A stretch of DNA of 64,000 nucleotides from an uncultured Clostridia bacterium (GTDB lineage Bacteria > Bacillota > Clostridia > Oscillospirales > Acutalibacteraceae): positions 1 to 64,000 of the forward strand of contig CANRAU010000008.1 of the NCBI GenBank assembly GCA_947628665.1. The letters are read 5' to 3'. Of this stretch, positions 29,824-40,660 are shown one piece after another. The translations under genes and the position numbers were made by a program. Under the pieces are notes generated by a model, which saw only the letters and a list, made by a program, of their open reading frames with translations, was not told the DNA's origin and searched no databases. Positions within the stretch are counted from its first letter, which is position 1. Each line of letters begins with the position of its first letter.

Positions 29824-29852
29824 TTGACAAAGCGAAAAAGAACTTGTATACT
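29824..29852 (+). promoter_or_regulatory. Promoter of the cobalamin-riboswitch operon
   Basis: Perfect TTGACA (29824-29829), 17 bases, TATACT (29847-29852), with expected start near 29859, about 40 bases before the aptamer. Confidence 0.85.
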
Positions 29853-29899
29853 GGAAAAAACTGCATAGGGGCTGTCCCTATAAAGGGGTAGCCTTACAT

Positions 29900-30091
29900 G
29901 AAATACGGTTTGAAAAGTTGTTTGCTGAGTAGATGAAAAGGGAATCCGGTTCGAGTCCGGAACAACCGCCATTACTGTATTTGACGAAAGAAAGAGCTTC
30001 TGCCATTGGGACGTTTTTGCCCCGAGAAGGCGCTCTTTTGGGACGCGGGGAAAGCCGCGCCGCGCATAAGTCAGGAGACCTGCCGTATTTC
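29900..30091 (+). promoter_or_regulatory. Cobalamin (B12) riboswitch aptamer
   Basis: The closing stem P1 is GAAATACGG (29900-29908) with CCGTATTTC (30083-30091). The conserved core AAAAGGGAATCCGG...GAGTCCGG...CCATTACTGTA and the B12 box AGTCAGGAGACCTGCC (30069-30084) are both present. Family members bind adenosyl- or methylcobalamin. A terminator at 30221-30255 follows, so the design is a transcriptional OFF switch: B12 present, operon off. Confidence 0.95.
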
Positions 30092-30220
30092 TTATGGTTA
30101 AGGCTTTGGTGTGAAGCGTGCAGCCGATCTATCGGACAGAACTTTGTCCGGCTTTGGGGCGCGCTTTTTTTGCGCCTTTTAGAAGCCATGCCTGCATGCA
30201 CCTGACCGATATATCTGTTG

Positions 30221-30255
30221 TACTCTTCCGACAAAGCGCGGAAGAGTATTTTTTT
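30221..30255 (+). terminator. Riboswitch expression-platform terminator
   Basis: A 10-pair stem TACTCTTCCG (30221-30230) with CGGAAGAGTA (30239-30248), then seven T. It ends just before the ribosome site of the first gene. Confidence 0.85.
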
Positions 30256-30272
30256 GTGAAGGGGGCGTTATT

Positions 30273-30539
30273 TTGCCGGAGGACAAACGCATATGGGCGA
30301 TAGACGCTTTACAGCAAAAGGCGGAGGAGACGGGGCGCACGCCGAAAAAAGAGGATTTTGACGAGACGACCCGCGCCCGCATCAAAGCGTTTCTCGGTCC
30401 GTGGCCGCGCGCCCTGGAGGCGGCGGGGCTAAAGGAAGCCAAGCCTTTATCGAAAAACAAAAAGAAAAAGCGTTCAAAACCCGCCGCTAAGCGCGGCAAG
30501 GCGCAAAATGACGCTTCAGAAGCAGGAGGTTCAAAATGA
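30273..30539 (+). CDS. Small basic protein with a homing-endonuclease-associated repeat
   Basis: 88 residues with a TTG start 7 bases after GAAGGGGG. Residues 5-54 (WAIDALQQKAEETGRTPKK, IKAFLGPWPRALEAAGL) match the HNH-associated helical repeat, a small putative DNA-binding unit. The tail is Lys-rich (KNKKKKRSKP). There is no signal peptide or nuclease domain. It is the first gene after the riboswitch terminator and its stop overlaps the next start (ATGA), so it is translationally coupled to the surface protein. It may be a local regulator; its B12 link is not known to me. Confidence 0.7.
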   Translation: MPEDKRIWAIDALQQKAEETGRTPKKEDFDETTRARIKAFLGPWPRALEAAGLKEAKPLSKNKKKKRSKPAAKRGKAQNDASEAGGSK

Positions 30540-33500
30540 AAAAGCAGAGGATCAGTCGGTTGGTTGCCGCATGTCTTGCGGTGCTGTTGGTCGTATCCAC
30601 GCTGCCCGTGTCCGCATTCGCGGCGGACATCGCGGCGCAGACGAATGAGGGCTTACTTGCCCTGCGCGGCGAGGGTACGGAAGAAAATCCGTATTTGCTT
30701 GAAACGGGAGACGATCTGAAAGCCCTGTCCGACGAAGTAAACAGCGGCGAAAGCTATAAAGGGCAGTATTTTCGGTTCGCGGCGGACATCACGCTGCCTG
30801 CGGATTGGACGCCGCTGGGCAGCGGCGGCAAGAGCTTTTCGGGAATCATCGATGGCAACGGCAAAACGCTGACCGTGCCGTCGGGCAGTCTGTCGCTTAT
30901 AGGCAAGCCCGTGGGCGCGACGGTCAAAAATCTGAACCTGTACGGCGAGAGAATTCCAGGCTACGGTTTGGTGCAGGGTTATGCCACAGGCTCTGACATC
31001 ACAATCGACCGTGTGACGATCAAAGCGGGTTCGCACATTTTGTATGCGGGTCTTATAGGCGGTTACGGCAACAGCTCCGTCACGATCACCCACTGCACGG
31101 TGGAAAAGGGCGTTGTCATCGGCGACGACGGCAGCGGCTTTTGGGGCGATCTCGGCGATACGGGCTACAGCTATCCGTTTGTGGGAAAGTTTGATCATCG
31201 GGACAACATCGGTTCTTTCGCAGGGGCGTTTAACGGCACGATCAGCGACTGTGTCAGCTACGCCACGGTGTACGGCGGAAACAACGTGGGCGGCATTGTC
31301 GGCGTGAAAGGGCAGTCCATGCGCGAATTCTATATCAACAGCTGTGCCTTTTACGGCGATGTGATCGCGACGGGCAAAGCGGTAGGCGGCATTGTGGGCA
31401 GCGGGTATCCTTCTGCTTCGTCGTCTCCCTGCGCGACCGTCGAAAACTGCTATGCCGTGGGGCATGTGCAGGGCGCGAACTGCGTCGGCGGTATTTTCGG
31501 CGGCGAAATGGGGACGAGCAACTGTCTGAACAACGGCGTCGGCAGTGTTCGCAACAACTTTTTTGCGGGGACGGTTGCGGCGACCGATGCGAATGCACAG
31601 GCTGGCGGCGTGATCGGATATATGAAGTCCCTGAACCGCTATAATGTGATCGACGGCAATTATTATACGGCGGATTGCGGCGCGCAGCGGGGTATCGGTG
31701 AAATACAAACCGTCAAAACCGCGGCCGACGACCCGCACTATGGGCGCGAGGACGATCCGACGGGCGCGGATGCGGACGCCGTCGCCATGCAAATTCCGAC
31801 GGCAGACCTGACCAACGGGAATTTGGTCTCGCGGCTCAACGCTTCGCTTACCGGGCATTCGGACTACAAGCAGGGCGCGCGGCATCCTGTTTTCGGCGAC
31901 GAAAAGCATGTGATCAGCGTCACGTCGCCAAACAAGCTGGCGTCCAGTCCCGAAAAGTCGGTGTACGCATATACGGACTATTCGCTTTTGGAAAATTATG
32001 ACATCACCGTTAAATACAGCGACGGCACAGTCCGGACGGTGAAAGCGTCCGAAGGCACATTTTCGGGCGTGGATTTTACAAAGACGGGGTATCAGCTCGC
32101 GACGCTTTTGTATGAAGGCTATGCGATGCACTTCGGCGTGAAGGTCAACGGGCTTCCTGCGTCCTCCAATGCGGTGTCCGTGACCGTTTTGGGCGATACC
32201 AACCACGGCGACAACGGGGAAGTCCATCTTTTGAAAAACGGCGATCTTTCCACATGGGTCGCCAAAAAGGCTTATTTGCTCGACAAAGGGCTGACCGTGA
32301 AAGACCTTTTGGAAAAATGCTTTGCGGAAAAAAATATTTCCTTTGTCAATGAAACAGGCAATTACATTTCACTAATCACCTTTGACGGCGTGACGCTCGG
32401 CGAGATGACCAACGGCGCGAATGCGGGCTGGCTGTATGCCGTAAACGGTGCGATCTCCGATTTGGGTATTGCGGAATATGTGCCGCAAAACGGCGACGAA
32501 GTCATCCTGTTCTATTCGGACGATTATACGCAGGAGAATTGGCAATATAATGCGGACGTGCTGCAGGTCACAAAGCTGTTGGAGGATTTGCCCGAAGCGG
32601 ACGGCCTGACGCCCGCGTATGCGGCGCAGGTTTTTGCCGCGCGGGACGCATATGCCGGCTTAGACGAGGACGAGCAAGCCTTTATTTCGGACGAATTGAA
32701 AGAGAAATTAGAAGCCGACGTGCTGAAAATCGCGGAGCTTCAAAAAGCGCAACAGCAGGCTTTGTCGGATATTTACCAAAAGACAGGGAACGCACTGCTG
32801 CAAGACGCCAAGGCAAACGGGCTGACTGTTTCTTCCGTCGGCGGCGAATGGGCGATGATCGGGCTTGCAAGATCGGGTGCGCTTACCGACGACGTGGCGG
32901 ACGCCTATTATCAGGAAGTCGTAACCGTCCTGCGCGAAAACGGCTCGGCAAAGTTGCATACCGTGAAATCCACGGAGAACGCGCGCGTCATCCTCGCTTT
33001 GACCGCCATCGGCAAAGACGTGACCAATGCGGCGGGATACAATTTGCTCGAACCGCTTTCCGATTGGGACTATGTGCAATTCCAGGGGGTCAATGGCCCC
33101 ATTTGGACGCTGATCGCTTTGGACGCGCATGATTACGCGATCCCCAAGGCCGAAGCGGGAAAAACGCAGACGACCAGAGAGGGGCTTATCGCGTACATTT
33201 TGGAAAAGCAATCCGCAAACGGCGGCTGGGGCTTGCACGCAGACGATGACGCGGACGCGGATCTGAGCGCCATGGCCATACAGGCGCTTGCCCCGTACTA
33301 TGCGGAAAACGCAGAGGTTAGGCGCGCGGTAGATAAGGCGTTGGACTATCTGTCCGCTGTGCAGAATGCAGACGGCTCTTTCTCCTCGTGGGGGACATCG
33401 AATTTTGAATCGGTCGCACAAACGATCATCGCGCTCGCGACGCTCGGAATTGACCCGACTGCGGATGCGCGCTTCATCAAAAACGGCTATACGCTTATGG

Positions 33501-33931
33501 ATGCGTTGTTGGCGTTCAGCACGGGGGACGGCTTTAAACACGCGTGGGACGACGAGCAGAAAAACGATATGACGACCGAACAGGGGTATCTGGCGCTCGT
33601 GTCGTATAACAGATTGCAAAGCGGCAGGACGAGCCTTTACGATATGCGCGATGTGCAGATCATACCTTCTAAGACCCCGTCGTACGGTACACCCGCAGGG
33701 GACAACGGCACGTCTGCTCCAAGCATCCCGCCCCAAGAGGGGAACGGCGTGTCTGCTCCAAACACCCCGCCCCAAGAGGGGAACGGCGCTCCCAATCAGA
33801 ATACCGTGGATATTCCCGACACCTTCGGCGAACGCTTCGGAACACCCGACCAATCCCTTTGCATGTGCCTTGCGGCAGGAACTCTGCTTTGCCTTGTACG
33901 CAGGATTCTGACAAAAAAAGAAGAAGTGTAA
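30536..33931 (+). CDS. B12-regulated surface protein with transcobalamin-like domains
   Basis: 1131 residues. A signal peptide (ending SAFAAD) is followed by GLUG-type beta-helix repeats at about 40-430 (NVGGIVG, CVGGIFGGEMG), an Ig-like segment (about 470-540), and a DUF4430 domain at about 548-672 (ANAGWLYAVNGA, NGDEVILFYSDDY), the family Pfam relates to the transcobalamin C-terminal domain. Residues about 742-1035 form an alpha/alpha barrel of the terpene-cyclase/intrinsic-factor type (SANGGWGLHADDDADADLSA, NADGSFSSWG). A Pro-rich linker with repeated PPQEGNG and a C-terminal membrane segment with KKEEV anchor it. I infer extracellular corrinoid capture. The order (beta domain, then barrel) is the reverse of human intrinsic factor. 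Confidence 0.88.
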   Translation: MKKQRISRLVAACLAVLLVVSTLPVSAFAADIAAQTNEGLLALRGEGTEENPYLLETGDDLKALSDEVNSGESYKGQYFRFAADITLPADWTPLGSGGKSFSGIIDGNGKTLTVPSGSLSLIGKPVGATVKNLNLYGERIPGYGLVQGYATGSDITIDRVTIKAGSHILYAGLIGGYGNSSVTITHCTVEKGVVIGDDGSGFWGDLGDTGYSYPFVGKFDHRDNIGSFAGAFNGTISDCVSYATVYGGNNVGGIVGVKGQSMREFYINSCAFYGDVIATGKAVGGIVGSGYPSASSSPCATVENCYAVGHVQGANCVGGIFGGEMGTSNCLNNGVGSVRNNFFAGTVAATDANAQAGGVIGYMKSLNRYNVIDGNYYTADCGAQRGIGEIQTVKTAADDPHYGREDDPTGADADAVAMQIPTADLTNGNLVSRLNASLTGHSDYKQGARHPVFGDEKHVISVTSPNKLASSPEKSVYAYTDYSLLENYDITVKYSDGTVRTVKASEGTFSGVDFTKTGYQLATLLYEGYAMHFGVKVNGLPASSNAVSVTVLGDTNHGDNGEVHLLKNGDLSTWVAKKAYLLDKGLTVKDLLEKCFAEKNISFVNETGNYISLITFDGVTLGEMTNGANAGWLYAVNGAISDLGIAEYVPQNGDEVILFYSDDYTQENWQYNADVLQVTKLLEDLPEADGLTPAYAAQVFAARDAYAGLDEDEQAFISDELKEKLEADVLKIAELQKAQQQALSDIYQKTGNALLQDAKANGLTVSSVGGEWAMIGLARSGALTDDVADAYYQEVVTVLRENGSAKLHTVKSTENARVILALTAIGKDVTNAAGYNLLEPLSDWDYVQFQGVNGPIWTLIALDAHDYAIPKAEAGKTQTTREGLIAYILEKQSANGGWGLHADDDADADLSAMAIQALAPYYAENAEVRRAVDKALDYLSAVQNADGSFSSWGTSNFESVAQTIIALATLGIDPTADARFIKNGYTLMDALLAFSTGDGFKHAWDDEQKNDMTTEQGYLALVSYNRLQSGRTSLYDMRDVQIIPSKTPSYGTPAGDNGTSAPSIPPQEGNGVSAPNTPPQEGNGAPNQNTVDIPDTFGERFGTPDQSLCMCLAAGTLLCLVRRILTKKEEV

Positions 33932-34003
33932 ACAAAATAAGGGGCATACGGCTTTTGCTGTGTTCCCGATCTTAACGCCGAACCGAAAGGGGGGAGAAGA
34001 CCC

Positions 34004-35206
34004 ATGCAAACAATGAAACGACTGCTTTCAAGGCTGTGCCTGCTGTTCACGGTATGTTCGCTGCTTGTGTCGGCAATCCCCTTGTCCGCCGCAGCCGATG
34101 CAGCCATCGGTTACGCAACGTGGAGCGTGGAGCTGTTCACCATCGGGTGCGGGTATTTGGTAAAGCCTGTCCGTATGCCGATCTACAAAGGGGAAACGGC
34201 GGCGGACGGACTGCTTCGTCTGCTGTCCCAAAATGGCTTTGCCGCGTATTACGGCGGCACGCCCGACGAAGCCTTTTATCTTGGCTATATTGCGGACGGT
34301 ACGGCCTCCAATACGCGGTATAACGGGTATCGAAAAAGCGCGACGCCCGCCGCGCCTAAAAAACTGAATCTTTCCCCCAGCATCCCGTCCATGCTCGACG
34401 GACATCTCAAAAGAACGATGACCTTTTACGATCCGTCCGACTACCAAAAGCATTACACGGGCTATATCGGCGAATTTGTGATCACCAACGGCTCGGGGTG
34501 GATGTACAGCGTCGATCACCGTTTTCCGAGCGTCGGGTTTTCCGATACCCGCCTGTCAAACGGCGACGTTGTCCGCGTGCAGTTTACGCTCGGTTTCGGC
34601 GCAGACATCGGCGGCGGCAAAGCGGCGGCGAGACAGTTGGGACAGGCGAATGCGCAGGACAGCACGGGCTACTATACCGTCGCGAACAAAGACGAATTGA
34701 CCAAAGCGATCGGCGACGCGCTCTCCAAAGGGCTTACGGCGAAATCTTTGGTCAAGCAGGCATACGAGAATGCCCTTTCCGTCGCGGAAACGCTTGACGC
34801 TTCGCAAAATACCGTGGATGCCGCGACGCGCGCACTGCGTGCCGCACTTTCCAAGGCACAAACGGCGCAAACGACGACTTCCGACAAGATGGGAGGAAAA
34901 AGCACGCAACCGACCGAAGCGCAGGCTTCGTCCAAAGTCCCTGTCTCTCAAGTGCCGACCACAGCGGCGCAAACCGAGGGCTTGGCCGCTCCCGAGAACG
35001 GCGCGGGGACGACCGTGAACGGCACCCCCGCGGAAACCGCCTCCGGCGCCGTGCCTGCGCAGGCAAGCGAAGCGCCGAAGCCGACTGTAAAAACGCGGCA
35101 TTGGATAGCCATACTTTGCGCGGTTCTTGTCCCTTTGATTGCGGCGGGTGTGTACGTCCTTGTGCGACACAAACAGCGGAAAAAGGGGACAAACCCGCAT
35201 GCATAA
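34004..35206 (+). CDS. Membrane-anchored DUF4430 (transcobalamin-like) protein
   Basis: 400 residues. A signal peptide is followed by a DUF4430 domain at about 37-200 (YKGETAADGLLRLL, GSGWMYSVDHRFPSVGFSD, SNGDVVRVQFTLGFG), then a helical segment (about 225-290), a Ser/Thr/Pro/Ala-rich stalk and a C-terminal membrane segment (WIAILCAVLVPLIAAGVYVL) with HKQRKKG. It begins 72 bases after the previous gene with no terminator between, so it is probably under the same B12 riboswitch. It is likely a second corrinoid-binding surface protein, perhaps passing ligand to an uptake transporter. No such transporter is in this window. Confidence 0.82.
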   Translation: MQTMKRLLSRLCLLFTVCSLLVSAIPLSAAADAAIGYATWSVELFTIGCGYLVKPVRMPIYKGETAADGLLRLLSQNGFAAYYGGTPDEAFYLGYIADGTASNTRYNGYRKSATPAAPKKLNLSPSIPSMLDGHLKRTMTFYDPSDYQKHYTGYIGEFVITNGSGWMYSVDHRFPSVGFSDTRLSNGDVVRVQFTLGFGADIGGGKAAARQLGQANAQDSTGYYTVANKDELTKAIGDALSKGLTAKSLVKQAYENALSVAETLDASQNTVDAATRALRAALSKAQTAQTTTSDKMGGKSTQPTEAQASSKVPVSQVPTTAAQTEGLAAPENGAGTTVNGTPAETASGAVPAQASEAPKPTVKTRHWIAILCAVLVPLIAAGVYVLVRHKQRKKGTNPHA

Positions 35207-35378: not shown

Positions 35379-36608
35379 TTATATAGGAAAGGTGACGGTC
35401 ATTTGAAAGGTGTGGCTGTCGGACATTTGCGCCTGGATCTTGCCGCCGTGGGCGTGTACAATGGCATTCGCCACGGACAGGCCGATGCCATGCCCGCCCG
35501 TTTCGGAATTGCGGGATAAATCGGTGCGGTAAAAACGGTCAAATATATGTTGCAGCCCGTCGGGAGAAATGGCGGCTTCGACGGCGTTGCACACACGCAA
35601 AACAAGCGCTTTGCCCTGTTTTTTCAATGTAAGCGATATGGCGGAGTCAGGCGCTGCATATTTCAACGCATTATCCATGAGGATATAAATCAACTGCTCG
35701 ATTGCCTTTTGGTCGCCCCTGAGCGTCAGCATGGGCTGCACCTCGCAAAGAAAGGTTTTGCCCTGTATCTGCGCGAGCGTCGAGAATGGTCGGGCGGCCT
35801 CCTCAACGACTTCGGACAGGGGAAAATCTATCTTTTGCAGGTTTTGCCCGTTTTCCTCCATACGCGCCAAATAGATGAGATCGTTTGTCAGTCGGGTCAG
35901 ACGTGCGGCCTGCCCGCGAATATCCTCTAAACACTCATTTTGCCCTATATCCATTTCCAAAACGTCGGTATTGGCCTGTATAATGGTAAGCGGCGTTTTG
36001 ATCTCATGCCCCGCGTCGGTGATAAAGCGTTTTTGCTTCTCGTAGCTTTCGGCGATCGGCTGAATGAATTTCCCCGCGAAAAAGAAAATGACGAAAAAGA
36101 CGATCCCAAAGCCCAAAAGCGCCATACCGATGCTCGTCAGCAGGAAGCCGAAATATGCGTCCAGCTTCCGCCCGCAGTCTAAGAAAGTGATGCGTACCGT
36201 ATCGCCCTCCACCGTGCGCATATACCGAAATCGGTCGGCAAAACCGCGCGCCTTGCCGCTTTTTTGCACGCTGTTCGCATAGGCGATCGCCATGGAGGGG
36301 TCTACCGCGCTGATGCGGCCGGTTTCGGTGTGGAGAACGTCCCCGTTTGCACGCAGCAAAACGGAAAAGTATCTGGATTCATACGGCAGCTCCGGCGACA
36401 TATTCGGCGGCATATGGTTTTCTCTGCCGCCACCCCCAAACTCGGGAAAAACCCCTCTATTTTGGGAAAGCAGCGTGAGTACCTCGTCGGCATCCCGCAC
36501 GACGGAAGTATAATTGATCAGATTCATCCCCACGACGATCACCGTAAGCAATACGAACAGCGAGATCATGGACAGGGCGACAAATTTGCGCTTGAGTTTT
36601 TTGATCAT
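35379..36608 (-). CDS. Sensor histidine kinase
   Basis: 409 residues starting at ATG 36608, which overlaps the regulator stop by four bases. It has a membrane segment near 13-35, an extracellular sensor loop (about 36-150, with GGGGRENHMPPN), a second membrane segment near 165-185, His201 in HEIKTPLTIIQ, then N-box NALKYAAP, and G-boxes GGHGIGLSVANAIV. It would phosphorylate the neighbouring regulator. Divergent orientation to the VTC/DUF4956 genes suggests it controls them. Confidence 0.92.
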   Translation of the reverse strand: MIKKLKRKFVALSMISLFVLLTVIVVGMNLINYTSVVRDADEVLTLLSQNRGVFPEFGGGGRENHMPPNMSPELPYESRYFSVLLRANGDVLHTETGRISAVDPSMAIAYANSVQKSGKARGFADRFRYMRTVEGDTVRITFLDCGRKLDAYFGFLLTSIGMALLGFGIVFFVIFFFAGKFIQPIAESYEKQKRFITDAGHEIKTPLTIIQANTDVLEMDIGQNECLEDIRGQAARLTRLTNDLIYLARMEENGQNLQKIDFPLSEVVEEAARPFSTLAQIQGKTFLCEVQPMLTLRGDQKAIEQLIYILMDNALKYAAPDSAISLTLKKQGKALVLRVCNAVEAAISPDGLQHIFDRFYRTDLSRNSETGGHGIGLSVANAIVHAHGGKIQAQMSDSHTFQMTVTFPI

Positions 36609-37276
36609 TCGGATTCCTCCAACGCATATCCGGCGTTTCGGTAGGCTTTGATTTGAATATCCGCGTGCAGCGTCAGCAGCTTTTTGCGCAAGTAGGAAAC
36701 ATATACCCACACCACGTGGATTTGCGCGTCGCTGTCATAGCCCCATATTTTTTCCATCAACCGCGCGGGGGAGAGGATACAGCGGGGATTGGCCATGAAA
36801 AGCTCCATCAACTGAAATTCCCGATTGGCGAGCCGAAAACTGCCGAACGGCGAGGAGAGCGTAAACGTCGCGCGATCCAGGGTGATATTGCCGACGGTCA
36901 GCGTGGAATCCGCCGCATTCTGCGTTCGGGTGATCGCGCGGATGGCCGCGAGCAGTTCCCTGGTATCAAAGGGTTTGGTCAAATAGTAATTCGCACCGCT
37001 GTCCAGCCCCAATACCTTGTCGTCGATCTCCGATTTTGCCGTCAGCAACAGAACGGGCACGGTGTTTCCCTGTTCGCGCACTTTGCGTAGCGCCGTAATG
37101 CCATCCATTTTCGGCATCATAACATCCAAAACGGCGACGTCATAGTCTCCGCATCCAAGGTAATCGAGAGCGTCCGCCCCGTTATATACCACATCGACGG
37201 CGTAATGATTTTTTTCCAAAATTTTGCACAGCGCCTTTGCAAGCGCGCGTTCATCTTCGGCAAGTAAGATCCGCAT
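36605..37276 (-). CDS. OmpR/PhoB-family response regulator
   Basis: 223 residues. The receiver domain has acidic pair ED at 7-8, phospho-acceptor Asp51 (VLDVMMPKMDG) and Lys in LTKPFD. The winged-helix DNA-binding domain covers about 125-220 (LANREFQLMELFM, WVYVSYLRKKL). It is first in the operon with its kinase. An AT-rich spacer (37277-37428) separates it from the divergent VTC gene and is a likely target. Confidence 0.93.
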   Translation of the reverse strand: MRILLAEDERALAKALCKILEKNHYAVDVVYNGADALDYLGCGDYDVAVLDVMMPKMDGITALRKVREQGNTVPVLLLTAKSEIDDKVLGLDSGANYYLTKPFDTRELLAAIRAITRTQNAADSTLTVGNITLDRATFTLSSPFGSFRLANREFQLMELFMANPRCILSPARLMEKIWGYDSDAQIHVVWVYVSYLRKKLLTLHADIQIKAYRNAGYALEESE

Positions 37277-37428
37277 CCTGCACCGTCCTTTCTTACTTTA
37301 CACGATTGTATTTTAATCGGCGAACATTAACCGAAATTAAAAGAAAAAATTTTTAAAAAGAAAAATTTAAATTTTTTAGTTGAATTAAGCTACCGTATGT
37401 ATCATAACACAAGAAAAGAGGTGCGGCA

Positions 37429-38148
37429 ATGGGTTATCAAACCGTTTTTAAACGCTACGAACTCAAATATTTGCTGACGCAGGCGCAAAAAGAGCATATC
37501 CTCATGGCCATGAAGCCGTACATGACCATGGATCAATATGGACGCACCTGTATTCGCAACATTTATTTCGATACGGACAATTACCGATTGATCCGTAAAT
37601 CCATCGAAAAACCGGCTTACAAGGAGAAACTGCGGATTCGCAGTTATCAGCGCGCGACCCCGCAAAGCACAGTGTTTGTGGAACTGAAGAAGAAATATCA
37701 ATCCGTCGTGTACAAACGCCGTCTGCCATTGACGGAAGATGACGCGCTTGCATGGTTGAGAGGAAAGTGCCGCTGTAAAGAGGACTCCCAAATTTCGCGC
37801 GAGATCGACTATTTTCTCTTCTATTATCAAACCCTGCATCCGACGGTGTTCCTCTCGTATGCGCGCGAAGCATATTACGCGCTTGACGAAACAGATTTCC
37901 GCGTCACTTTTGACGATACCATCCTTTGCCGACAGACCGACCTTTCGCTGGAAGCGGAAGCGGGCGGCACGCCGCTTTTAGAGGATGGCACGACTCTTAT
38001 GGAGATCAAATGCGGTGGCGGTATCCCGCTTTGGATGGCACACGCTTTATGTGAAGCGCACATCTGCAAAACCTCGTTTTCCAAATACGGAACGGCGTAT
38101 CAAAAACTGATTTATCCGCAATATAAGGAGGCGGCACAATATGCTTGA
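37429..38148 (+). CDS. VTC-domain protein (polyphosphate polymerase-like)
   Basis: 239 residues of the VTC fold. FKRYELKYLLT, YFDTDNYRLIRKSIEKPAYKEKLRIRSY, FVELKKKYQSVVYKRR and LMEIKC provide the basic and acidic residues lining the tunnel. Eukaryotic VTC4 polymerises phosphate from ATP; bacterial versions are assumed to do so but are little tested. AAGAGGTGCGG precedes the ATG. It overlaps the DUF4956 gene by eight bases, indicating tight coupling. Confidence 0.88.
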   Translation: MGYQTVFKRYELKYLLTQAQKEHILMAMKPYMTMDQYGRTCIRNIYFDTDNYRLIRKSIEKPAYKEKLRIRSYQRATPQSTVFVELKKKYQSVVYKRRLPLTEDDALAWLRGKCRCKEDSQISREIDYFLFYYQTLHPTVFLSYAREAYYALDETDFRVTFDDTILCRQTDLSLEAEAGGTPLLEDGTTLMEIKCGGGIPLWMAHALCEAHICKTSFSKYGTAYQKLIYPQYKEAAQYA

Positions 38149-38836
38149 TTCTCTCTTTCAAGGCTTGTTTGATTCCGATACCCTTTCGGTCATTCCGATC
38201 ACGGATTTTCTGCTTTGCATAGGGATTTCTCTGCTTGCGGGGCTGATCATGGCGTTTGGATATATGTACCGCACACGCTATACCAAGAGCTTTGTCGTCA
38301 CGCTTGCACTTTTGCCTGCGGCCGTGTGTATCGTCATTATGATGGTCAATGGGAATGTCGGCGCGGGCGTGGCCGTTGCGGGCGCTTTCGGACTGGTGCG
38401 TTTCCGCTCCGCCCCGGGGACGGCAAAAGAGATCGGCGCGCTGTTTTTGGCCATGGGCGCGGGGCTCATCGCGGGCATGGGCTATCTCGGCTTTGCGCTT
38501 TTGTTTACCGTGATCATGTGCGCGGTATTTATCCTTTACAATCGTTTGGATTTCGGCTCGAAGCGAAACGCCGCAAAATATAAAACCCTGCATATCACCA
38601 TACCCGAGGATTTGGATTACTCGGGCGTGTTTGACGATATTTTTGAGACCTTTACAACGACTTGCGAACTGGAACGGGTGAAGAGCACGAACATGGGCAG
38701 TATGTTCCACCTGACCTATCAAATCTCCCTGCGCGACCCGCAGCGGGAGAAAGAAATGATCGATCAGCTTCGATGCAGAAACGGCAATTTGGAGATCACG
38801 GTTTCCAAGCAGGAAACGGCCGTGTCCGAATTATAA
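38141..38836 (+). CDS. DUF4956 membrane protein
   Basis: 231 residues with four membrane segments in the first 140 residues (LLCIGISLLAGLIMAFGYMY; VTLALLPAAVCIVIMM; AGVAVAGAFGLVRFRSAPGTAKE; YLGFALLFTVIMCAVFILY) and a cytoplasmic ferredoxin-like C-terminal domain. DUF4956 proteins recur beside VTC genes in Firmicutes and may form a membrane partner or conduit for polyphosphate; this is inference. Confidence 0.85.
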   Translation: MLDSLFQGLFDSDTLSVIPITDFLLCIGISLLAGLIMAFGYMYRTRYTKSFVVTLALLPAAVCIVIMMVNGNVGAGVAVAGAFGLVRFRSAPGTAKEIGALFLAMGAGLIAGMGYLGFALLFTVIMCAVFILYNRLDFGSKRNAAKYKTLHITIPEDLDYSGVFDDIFETFTTTCELERVKSTNMGSMFHLTYQISLRDPQREKEMIDQLRCRNGNLEITVSKQETAVSEL

Positions 38837-38851
38837 CAGGGGGGTTGCTTT

Positions 38852-40660
38852 ATGAAGCATATCGGAAGGGCTTTGGCGCTGATTTTAAGTTTTATCCTGC
38901 TTTTGTGCGCCTGTACGGTGCAAAAGGAGGATACGCCGTCTGAGACCGACACGTCATCCACCGCGCAAAGCGGCGTTTATGCGGAGGATGCAGATATGTT
39001 TTCCGCCCGTGATTACGAGATCGGATACGACGAAAGCAACAGCATCCAAATCAAGCTCAACGGCGACTCCGTATCCTGCGATTCCGATTCCGTTGCTATT
39101 TCCGATACGACCGTGACCATTCGGGACGAGGGGACGTATATTCTGTCGGGTACGCTTCGGAACGGACGCATTGTTGTCGACGCGGAAAAAACCGATAAGC
39201 CGCAGTTGGTTCTAAACGGCGCTTCGATCCACTGCGAGACCTCTGCGCCGCTGTATGTGGCGCAGGCGGATAAAGTATTTGTCACTTTGCCGAAAGACAG
39301 CAAGAACACACTGTCAAACGGCGGTACTTTTACCGCCGTGGACGAGAACAACATTGACGCGGTGATTTTTTCCAAAGAGGATCTGACCTTGAACGGCGAG
39401 GGCAGCCTTACGGTCACTTCCCCTGCGGGACACGGAATTGTGTCCAAGGACGATCTTGTCTGCACAGGCGGGAATTATACGGTTAAGGCGGCGTCCCACG
39501 CATTAGATGCGAACGACAGCGTGCGGCTCAAAAACGCCGCATTTACGTTGGACGCGGGGAAAGATGGCATTCATGCGGAAAACACGGAGGATACCGACCT
39601 CGGGTTTGTTTATATCGCAAGCGGTACGCTGCACGTCACAGCGGATGGGGACGGCATAAGCGCGGGCGCGTATATGCAGATCAAGGGCGGCAGTTTTTCG
39701 GTCGAGTCGGGCGGCGGAAGCGACGCCGCTGTAAAAAAGCAGACGACCGATCCCCGCACAGGCTCTGTAGGAAGACCCGACCGTTTCGGGAATTCCGCTG
39801 CTTCCGACGCGGCGACAACCGATACCAGCGATGTAAGCGGCAAGGCGCTCAAGGCGACGGGGAATCTGCAAATCCGGGACGGCAGTTTTACTTTGAATGC
39901 AGCGGACGATGCCGTACACGCCAACGCATCGATCACCGTGGACGGCGGTACTTTTCAAATCGCTACGGGCGACGATGGCTTCCATGCCGACGAGACGTTG
40001 ACCGTCCAAGCAGGCACGGTCGAGATCACGGAGAGCTACGAGGGACTGGAAGCGTTGAACCTGAATATCCAAGGCGGGGATATTCGGCTGACTGCCGACG
40101 ACGACGGATTAAATGCCGCAGGCGGAAAGGACGAAAGCGGTTTCGGCGGACCTCGCGGCAACGCGCAGCCCGACCGCGGAGGGATGGATACCTTCGGCCC
40201 GGGCGGAAAAGGCGGAGCGGGCGGTTCTGCTTCCAACGGTACGATTTGCATTTCGGGCGGCACTTTGCAGATCACGGCATCGGGCGACGGCATCGATGCA
40301 AACGGCTCTGTGACGATCTCGGGCGGCAATATCACTGTGTGCGGGCCGATGCAGGGGGATACCGCAACTTTGGATTTTGACGTCAGCGGCACGATCACGG
40401 GCGGCACGTTTATCGGTACAGGCGCAGCCGGTATGGCGCAAACCTTCAGCGCTTCCGAGCAGGGCGTGCTCGCGGTGAACGTGGGCAGCCAGTCGGCAGG
40501 CACGCAAATCAAGCTGCAAGATAAGTCCGGCAAAACGCTTCTTTCCCATACGCCGCAGTTACCTTACACTGTGGTCATCCTCAGTACGCCCGACCTGAAA
40601 AGCGGTGAAACGTATACGCTTTCGGTGGGCTCGTCCTCCGCAGATTTTCAGGCAAGCTGA
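38852..40660 (+). CDS. Carbohydrate-binding beta-helix lipoprotein (Cthe_2159-like)
   Basis: 602 residues. Lipoprotein signal ending LLCAC, then a long right-handed beta-helix (about 55-560) with repeated units such as GDGISAGAYMQIKGG, ADDAVHANASITVDGG and GDDGFHADETLTVQAG. This matches the Cthe_2159 family, whose founder binds polygalacturonic acid and calcium. A Gly/Arg-rich loop (about 430-455) interrupts the helix. It starts 16 bases after the DUF4956 gene. Its place in a VTC cluster suggests a cell-surface glycan-binding part of the same system. Confidence 0.85.
   Translation: MKHIGRALALILSFILLLCACTVQKEDTPSETDTSSTAQSGVYAEDADMFSARDYEIGYDESNSIQIKLNGDSVSCDSDSVAISDTTVTIRDEGTYILSGTLRNGRIVVDAEKTDKPQLVLNGASIHCETSAPLYVAQADKVFVTLPKDSKNTLSNGGTFTAVDENNIDAVIFSKEDLTLNGEGSLTVTSPAGHGIVSKDDLVCTGGNYTVKAASHALDANDSVRLKNAAFTLDAGKDGIHAENTEDTDLGFVYIASGTLHVTADGDGISAGAYMQIKGGSFSVESGGGSDAAVKKQTTDPRTGSVGRPDRFGNSAASDAATTDTSDVSGKALKATGNLQIRDGSFTLNAADDAVHANASITVDGGTFQIATGDDGFHADETLTVQAGTVEITESYEGLEALNLNIQGGDIRLTADDDGLNAAGGKDESGFGGPRGNAQPDRGGMDTFGPGGKGGAGGSASNGTICISGGTLQITASGDGIDANGSVTISGGNITVCGPMQGDTATLDFDVSGTITGGTFIGTGAAGMAQTFSASEQGVLAVNVGSQSAGTQIKLQDKSGKTLLSHTPQLPYTVVILSTPDLKSGETYTLSVGSSSADFQAS

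Follow-up and report, generated by a model that had tools for sequence, protein, structure and literature searches.

The window analysed here, a stretch of 64,000 nucleotides of contig CANRAU010000008.1 (assembly GCA_947628665.1), comes from an uncultured Clostridia bacterium of the family Acutalibacteraceae, a gut-type bacterium. Positions 29824-35206 of its forward strand hold a cobalamin riboswitch followed by three genes, encoding an HNH_repeat protein and two DUF4430 proteins, termed P1 and P2. We consider it likely that this is a B12-repressed operon for a surface module that captures corrinoids and feeds an energy-coupling factor (ECF) importer of the CbrT type. A sigma-70-type promoter, TTGACA-17-TATACT, is found at 29824-29852 (+) with 11 of 12 consensus matches; as the promoter scan overall gave about as many sites as shuffled sequences (4 versus 3.2), only the quality and position of this site count. 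The aptamer follows at 29889-30101 (+), where cmscan matched the cobalamin riboswitch model RF00174 over its full length (1-189) with 91.8 bits and an E-value of 1.8e-21, the gathering score being 31.5. The letters of the B12 box are readable at 30069-30084 and the P1 stem of the aptamer near 29900-29908/30083-30091. Downstream lies an intrinsic terminator of the OFF type (30220-30255, +), composed of an 11-pair hairpin at 30220-30249 (-16.3 kcal/mol, z -3.8) and seven consecutive T at 30249-30255, the first being paired; the terminator scan overall found 8 sites versus 9.2 in shuffles. The consensus promoter, the full aptamer with B12 box and P1 stem, and the OFF-type terminator (given as 30221-30255) of an initial annotation made from the letters were thus all recovered. 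We infer from this layout that the ligand switches the leader, and that it does so in the direction of termination. With a limit of E 0.001, the genome (2,000,547 bases, 99.22% complete) gave no RF00174 match other than this riboswitch.

The first gene past the terminator, which the initial annotation had missed, encodes an 88-aa HNH_repeat protein (30273-30539, +; PF18780, 47.5 bits, cut-off 26) and overlaps the start codon of P1. P1 (30536-33931, +) is a protein of 1131 aa with an N-terminal hydrophobic segment and a long N-terminal region, followed by a Big_3 Ig-like domain (aa 472-537, 31949-32146; PF07523, 22.3 bits, cut-off 21.2), a DUF4430 domain (aa 585-660, 32288-32515; PF14478, 37.4 bits), an alpha/alpha barrel (aa 767-1038, 32834-33649) and a C-terminal hydrophobic, putatively membrane-spanning segment (aa 1107-1125, 33854-33910). 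P2 (34004-35206, +; 400 aa) consists of an N-terminal hydrophobic segment, a DUF4430 domain with an insertion (about aa 36-205, 34109-34618), a stalk and a C-terminal hydrophobic segment. By hydropathy, both proteins carry one such segment near each terminus, in agreement with the earlier description of two anchored surface proteins, the localisation itself being predicted. An LPxTG-like motif was absent from both proteins in a motif search.

Both DUF4430 assignments lie above the Pfam cut-off of 23.8 bits, although the P2 match (31.1 bits) covers half of the profile only, at aa 161-195. P2 residues 26-214 were also modelled. In a Foldseek search with this model, the first five ranks (E 4.5e-3 to 7.8e-3) were taken by transcobalamin or its beta domain alone, and rank 7 by the beta domain with cyanocobalamin (5np4; TM 0.70 by target and 0.41 by query length); rank 6 was an unrelated protein with a probability of 0.12. 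The lower ranks held more transcobalamin, intrinsic factor, haptocorrin and the Ruminococcus gnavus structure 3u7z, with a few unrelated low-probability entries interspersed. Searched against proteins, the DUF4430 profile matched 3u7z (4.2e-4), TCN1 (0.018) and TCN2 (0.026), and the available text of one paper reports DUF4430 in the C-terminus of TCN proteins (PMC4350170). As modelled, the P2 domain adopts the transcobalamin beta-domain fold, in line with the proposed relationship of DUF4430 to the C-terminal domain of transcobalamin.

A DUF4430 search of the genome found a third copy on another contig, C12. It belongs to a minus-strand row of a 548-aa barrel protein, a 184-aa DUF4430 protein (PF14478, 59.6 bits), EcfT (PF02361, 28.9 bits, cut-off 25), a double ABC ATPase (ABC_tran, PF00005, 192.9 bits) and an S-component that matches CbrT (6fnp_A, E 5.2e-12). 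By these matches, the genome encodes an ECF-CbrT set of CbrT-type S-component, EcfT and EcfA. The P1 barrel and that of the 548-aa protein share 41% identity; no Pfam barrel family was found in the latter protein, whose termini resemble, by eye, a signal peptide (N) and a membrane helix (C). A riboswitch on the C12 operon was considered and dropped, as 751 bases spanning its start gave none at E up to 1 and the genome scan gave none but that of the window. An ECF or BtuFCD transporter under the same riboswitch had been envisaged; the ECF-CbrT set is indeed present, yet it lies on a different contig, where no riboswitch was detected. The genome also encodes a protein of methionine-synthase type, in which pterin-binding and homocysteine methyltransferase domains are accompanied by two B12-binding domains, whereas neither a FecCD permease nor CbiD was found in it. 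The bacterium therefore probably depends on cobamide from outside and has no route of the BtuCD type, and import by BtuCD was discarded.

The link between riboswitch and DUF4430 was examined in 100 genomes of the same family. Cobalamin riboswitches occur in 61 of them (71 places) and DUF4430 in 76 (108 places). Of the 71 riboswitches, 45 have DUF4430 no more than 8 kb downstream on the same strand, 30 of them at 1 kb or less, versus a chance expectation of about 0.17. The other orientations are nearly empty, with none downstream on the opposite strand, none upstream on the same strand and one upstream on the opposite strand. TPP riboswitches served as a negative control: these genomes have 101 matches, and none has DUF4430 within 20 kb on either strand.

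Operons were read at 41 of the 45 places, namely the window and 40 of the 44 others (G042, G050, G062 and G064 were left out); several of these stretches stop at a contig end. The commonest type (17/41) consists of the riboswitch, a DUF4430 protein of about 130-170 aa and an S-component of about 170-210 aa. Built from 16 of the 17 sequences (L092 left out), a profile of these small S-components has a single PDB match, 6fnp_A, which is CbrT of the B12 importer ECF-CbrT (E 4.4e-24). An S-component directly follows DUF4430 in 19 operons and is present in 24, and a barrel is found in 9 including the window; DUF4430 is present in all 41 by selection, and the barrel, ECF and S-component counts are partly circular because some of the sequences behind the hidden Markov models came from these very operons. 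Longer operons additionally hold a barrel protein or a PQQ-type propeller, plus EcfT and EcfA. In G098, of the same genus as the source, a 627-aa protein, with barrel, hydrophobic stretch and DUF4430 in this order, precedes EcfT, EcfA and S-component genes, and the riboswitch match (23.7 bits) is under the cut-off. G028, whose contig is that of Candidatus Gallacutalibacter stercoravium (L191), and G021 repeat the order of the window with riboswitch, HNH_repeat gene and large DUF4430 surface protein. Two loci, L087 and L110, have EcfA and a CbrT-type S-component apparently fused in one frame (1172 and 885 aa).

Relatives were also collected by the barrel. The search of genome contigs gave at least 560 relatives, of which 80 were kept as loci with the barrel as the only selection criterion; since some come from one genome (e.g. 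L132, L133 and L175), the 80 are not all independent. They represent Ruminococcus bromii, Lachnospiraceae, Oscillospiraceae, Christensenella, Paenibacillus, Cohnella, Lutispora, Pelotomaculum and others. Partners on the same strand are DUF4430 in 77 loci, EcfT in 63, EcfA in 63 and an S-component in 61, and all of them occur together in 61. It is rarer for the receptor genes to lie away from the transporter under their own riboswitch. Pfam confirmed EcfT, the double ATPase and an ECF S-component in L113 and L144. Where S-components adjoining DUF4430 were compared with the PDB, CbrT was their only or best match. Among 87 barrel-containing frames (D, DUF4430; B, barrel), the domain orders are D-B in 29, B in 30, B-D-B in 8, D-B-D-B in 6 and rarer types in 14.

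Riboswitches were searched for in the first 50 of the 80 loci, with L162-L191 (30 loci) left out. The genomes of these loci carry a cobalamin riboswitch in 46 of 49 cases, above the cut-off in 41. A letter-motif check passed 16 of the 50 loci and was too strict, so placement relied on coordinates and cmscan. The coordinates allow an upstream riboswitch on the same strand for 40 of the 50 loci, and for 23 of the 24 whose genome has one match; this matching ignored contig numbers, and false agreement is possible in genomes of many contigs (e.g. L146 and L157). Direct cmscan of 10 of the 80 loci placed a riboswitch above the gathering score upstream on the same strand in 8, the other two giving 27.0 and 28.9 bits. 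In L113, L114 and L115 (Ruminococcus) and similar loci, cobalamin riboswitch matches of about 135 bases lie about 1 kb upstream of the barrel at 27 bits, below gathering, and are possibly a variant aptamer.

The barrel of P1 was described in the initial annotation as being of intrinsic-factor type and joined to DUF4430 in reverse order. The order stands, the barrel being C-terminal to DUF4430, and the model of aa 546-1040 (mean pLDDT 93.5, pTM 0.74) is a helical barrel, the fold of terpenoid cyclases, prenyltransferases and transcobalamin. The type is not borne out by sequence. Pfam gave weak matches to the P1 toroid, all under cut-off, and no animal cobalamin-binding family was among the six P1 matches at E up to 1. 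Profiles of the barrel matched cyclases, prenyltransferases, macroglobulins and some weak unrelated entries in the PDB, and none of transcobalamin, intrinsic factor or haptocorrin was among the 32 matches at E up to 5 and 26 at E up to 10. Among the best 50 of 714 Foldseek matches of the model, drimenyl synthases and prenyltransferases came first; below them, transcobalamin began at rank 18 (1.2e-3), and intrinsic factor stood at rank 48 (4.2e-3). Because the profiles find cyclases and the fold matches are mixed, homology to intrinsic factor was set aside as unproven. Structural comparison with the animal carriers supports the DUF4430 domain of P2, the best matches of which are transcobalamin, but not a specific likeness of the barrel to intrinsic factor. 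An alignment revealed strongly conserved barrel positions, GGxW, QGxNG, DxDxTxM, DxRF, H and Q.

With the riboswitch ahead of them, a build partly like that of the animal carriers, and relatives that keep the same parts beside a B12 importer, the window proteins probably catch B12. Based on these observations, we propose the following course. When cobalamin is scarce, the riboswitch would permit read-through of the terminator, and P1 and P2 would be synthesised and inserted in the membrane, their ectodomains facing outward. The transcobalamin-beta-like DUF4430 domains and the barrel would bind corrinoids and pass these on to CbrT, the S-component of the ECF transporter encoded on contig C12, which comes with barrel and DUF4430 proteins of its own. 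Gram-positive surface scavenging in parallel to the animal carriers, as suggested initially, thus has good contextual support from the riboswitch, the recurrent pairing of DUF4430 and barrel with CbrT-type ECF genes and the transcobalamin-like DUF4430 fold, with the intrinsic-factor type of the barrel set aside.

Several observations weigh against this proposal. The ORF list holds no transporter gene in the window operon, and the C12 operon has no detectable riboswitch. The likeness of P2 to transcobalamin rests on a model of pLDDT 75.5, with a best Foldseek E-value of 4.5e-3, none at 1e-3, and TM scores of 0.37-0.41 by query length for the best matches; the profile matches to TCN1 and TCN2 are weak, with unrelated proteins at 0.21. 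Terpenoid cyclases are the nearest sequence relatives of the barrel with known structures. The large S-components of L113 and L144 score slightly higher as riboflavin-type PF07155 than as the general PF12822, and the direct comparison with CbrT covered, among large S-components, those of C12 and L091. In addition, 26 of the 71 riboswitches are without a downstream DUF4430, and 24 of the 100 genomes have DUF4430 with no riboswitch found; therefore, some DUF4430 proteins may do something else.

A rather unlikely alternative, though one to be taken seriously, is that the DUF4430 domains alone bind the corrinoid, with the barrel of P1 and its long N-terminal region serving as scaffold, cell-wall adhesin or ECF docking site. 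The commonest operon type pairs a small DUF4430 protein with a small S-component and has no barrel, the barrel is confined to 9 of the 41 operons and resembles cyclases by sequence, and the four proteins tested in its place are PQQ/BamB-type propellers. However, the conservation of the barrel exceeds what a spacer would need, and the ECF set is present in 61 of the 80 barrel loci. It is quite improbable that the module binds another ligand, such as haem or another vitamin, and that the riboswitch link reflects a wider B12 response. The genomes with DUF4430 and no riboswitch found, together with the two riboflavin-leaning S-components, would fit such a ligand, but CbrT is the only or best PDB match of the S-components beside DUF4430, no link of DUF4430 with TPP riboswitches was seen, and the characterised CbrT carries cobalamin as well as cobinamide, with no inhibition by haemin, according to the available text of PMC5997447. 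That the barrel is a terpenoid-cyclase-type enzyme, and that the operon serves the B12-controlled synthesis or modification of a lipid, was rejected as scarcely credible even with squalene-hopene and drimenyl cyclases as best sequence and fold matches, because DxDD, the catalytic signature of class II terpenoid cyclases, lacks its fourth D in 36 of 36 aligned sequences, and P1 and P2 have export-like N-terminal segments and the barrel is linked to an importer.

The proposed capture module resembles known systems in part. Animal cobalamin carriers (transcobalamin, intrinsic factor and haptocorrin) likewise combine an alpha/alpha barrel with a DUF4430-like domain. In these carriers the barrel comes first, whereas in P1 DUF4430 precedes it, and the bacterial domains occur singly, fused or in tandem. 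The bacterial proteins also differ by their C-terminal membrane segment, and, as far as the comparison goes, the likeness of the P1 barrel to the animal ones may be that of the general fold. CbrT was reportedly predicted by Rodionov et al. in 2009. As in ECF-CbrT of Lactobacillus delbrueckii, a CbrT-type S-component, EcfT and EcfA are present, here adjoining DUF4430 and barrel genes in the relatives and on C12; in contrast, surface proteins accompany the bacterial set described here, and those of the window stand alone with the riboswitch. The available text on the reconstituted ECF-CbrT describes transport without an added binding protein (PMC5997447). A DUF4430 protein of Lacticaseibacillus, LGG_02295 / LRHMDP2_2713, whose gene lies near the B12-dependent rtpR, is called an 'additional lipoprotein component of putative cobalamin ECF transporter' in the accessible part of PMC9963975, so the link of DUF4430 to cobalamin ECF transport is already in print as an annotation; that lipoprotein is listed at 14.3 and is too small to hold a barrel as well, and the accessible part mentions neither a riboswitch nor a likeness to transcobalamin. 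In the open-access literature, as far as its text was available, we found nothing that ties bacterial DUF4430 or transcobalamin-like proteins to cobalamin riboswitches; the barrel, receptors with both domains fused and a parallel with the animal carriers were likewise not encountered.

BtuG of Bacteroides is a surface lipoprotein that captures B12 for a transporter and is linked to B12 transport genes (PMC6143338, as far as available). Unlike the window proteins, it is a beta-propeller, as the accessible text of a 2020 review states (PMC6977713), and it is partnered with the outer-membrane BtuB, whereas the window has no propeller. A partial likeness is seen in some related riboswitch-DUF4430-ECF operons, in which PQQ/BamB-type propellers replace the barrel protein (L075, L085, L086 and L111, tested; L076 and L094, by eye).

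Extracellular capture of B12 by Gram-positive bacteria is largely open, and a conserved riboswitch-linked module would fill this gap; in the available text of the same review, at least some Gram-positives are considered likely to vary the known machinery, and ECF-type transport is mentioned for one Lactobacillus (PMC6977713). We offer, tentatively and with less than even confidence, a wider reading, in which Bacillota widely use modular, surface-anchored, intrinsic-factor-like receptors whose DUF4430 and barrel domains, shuffled in number and order, clamp the corrinoid between each other in the manner of transcobalamin and pass it to ECF-CbrT, the animal carriers being a late reuse of this bacterial domain pair. 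If true, the DUF4430-barrel receptors with ECF-CbrT would be the Gram-positive counterpart of BtuG/BtuB. A capture module of this kind, found in Ruminococcus bromii, Paenibacillus, Christensenella and others, would assign a function to DUF4430 and open the origin of the animal B12 carriers to testing; it would also matter for B12 competition in the gut.

The HNH_repeat gene has relatives in 10 other loci (L106, L083/L191, L112, L128, L136, L137, L139, L143, L164 and L169) and a weak match in L135 among 121 sources scanned, with L083 and L191 counted once; the model was built from three sequences that were later found again, two of them among the 10 loci. Wherever the riboswitch was placed (L164 and L169 excluded), this gene sits between the riboswitch and the barrel or large DUF4430 gene. 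Beyond P2, the next gene-like long open frame (35379-36710) is on the opposite strand. At 35379-40660, ORFs and Pfam matches reveal VTC, DUF4956 and Cthe_2159 genes in a row, and by eye an apparent two-component system lies beside them on the other strand.

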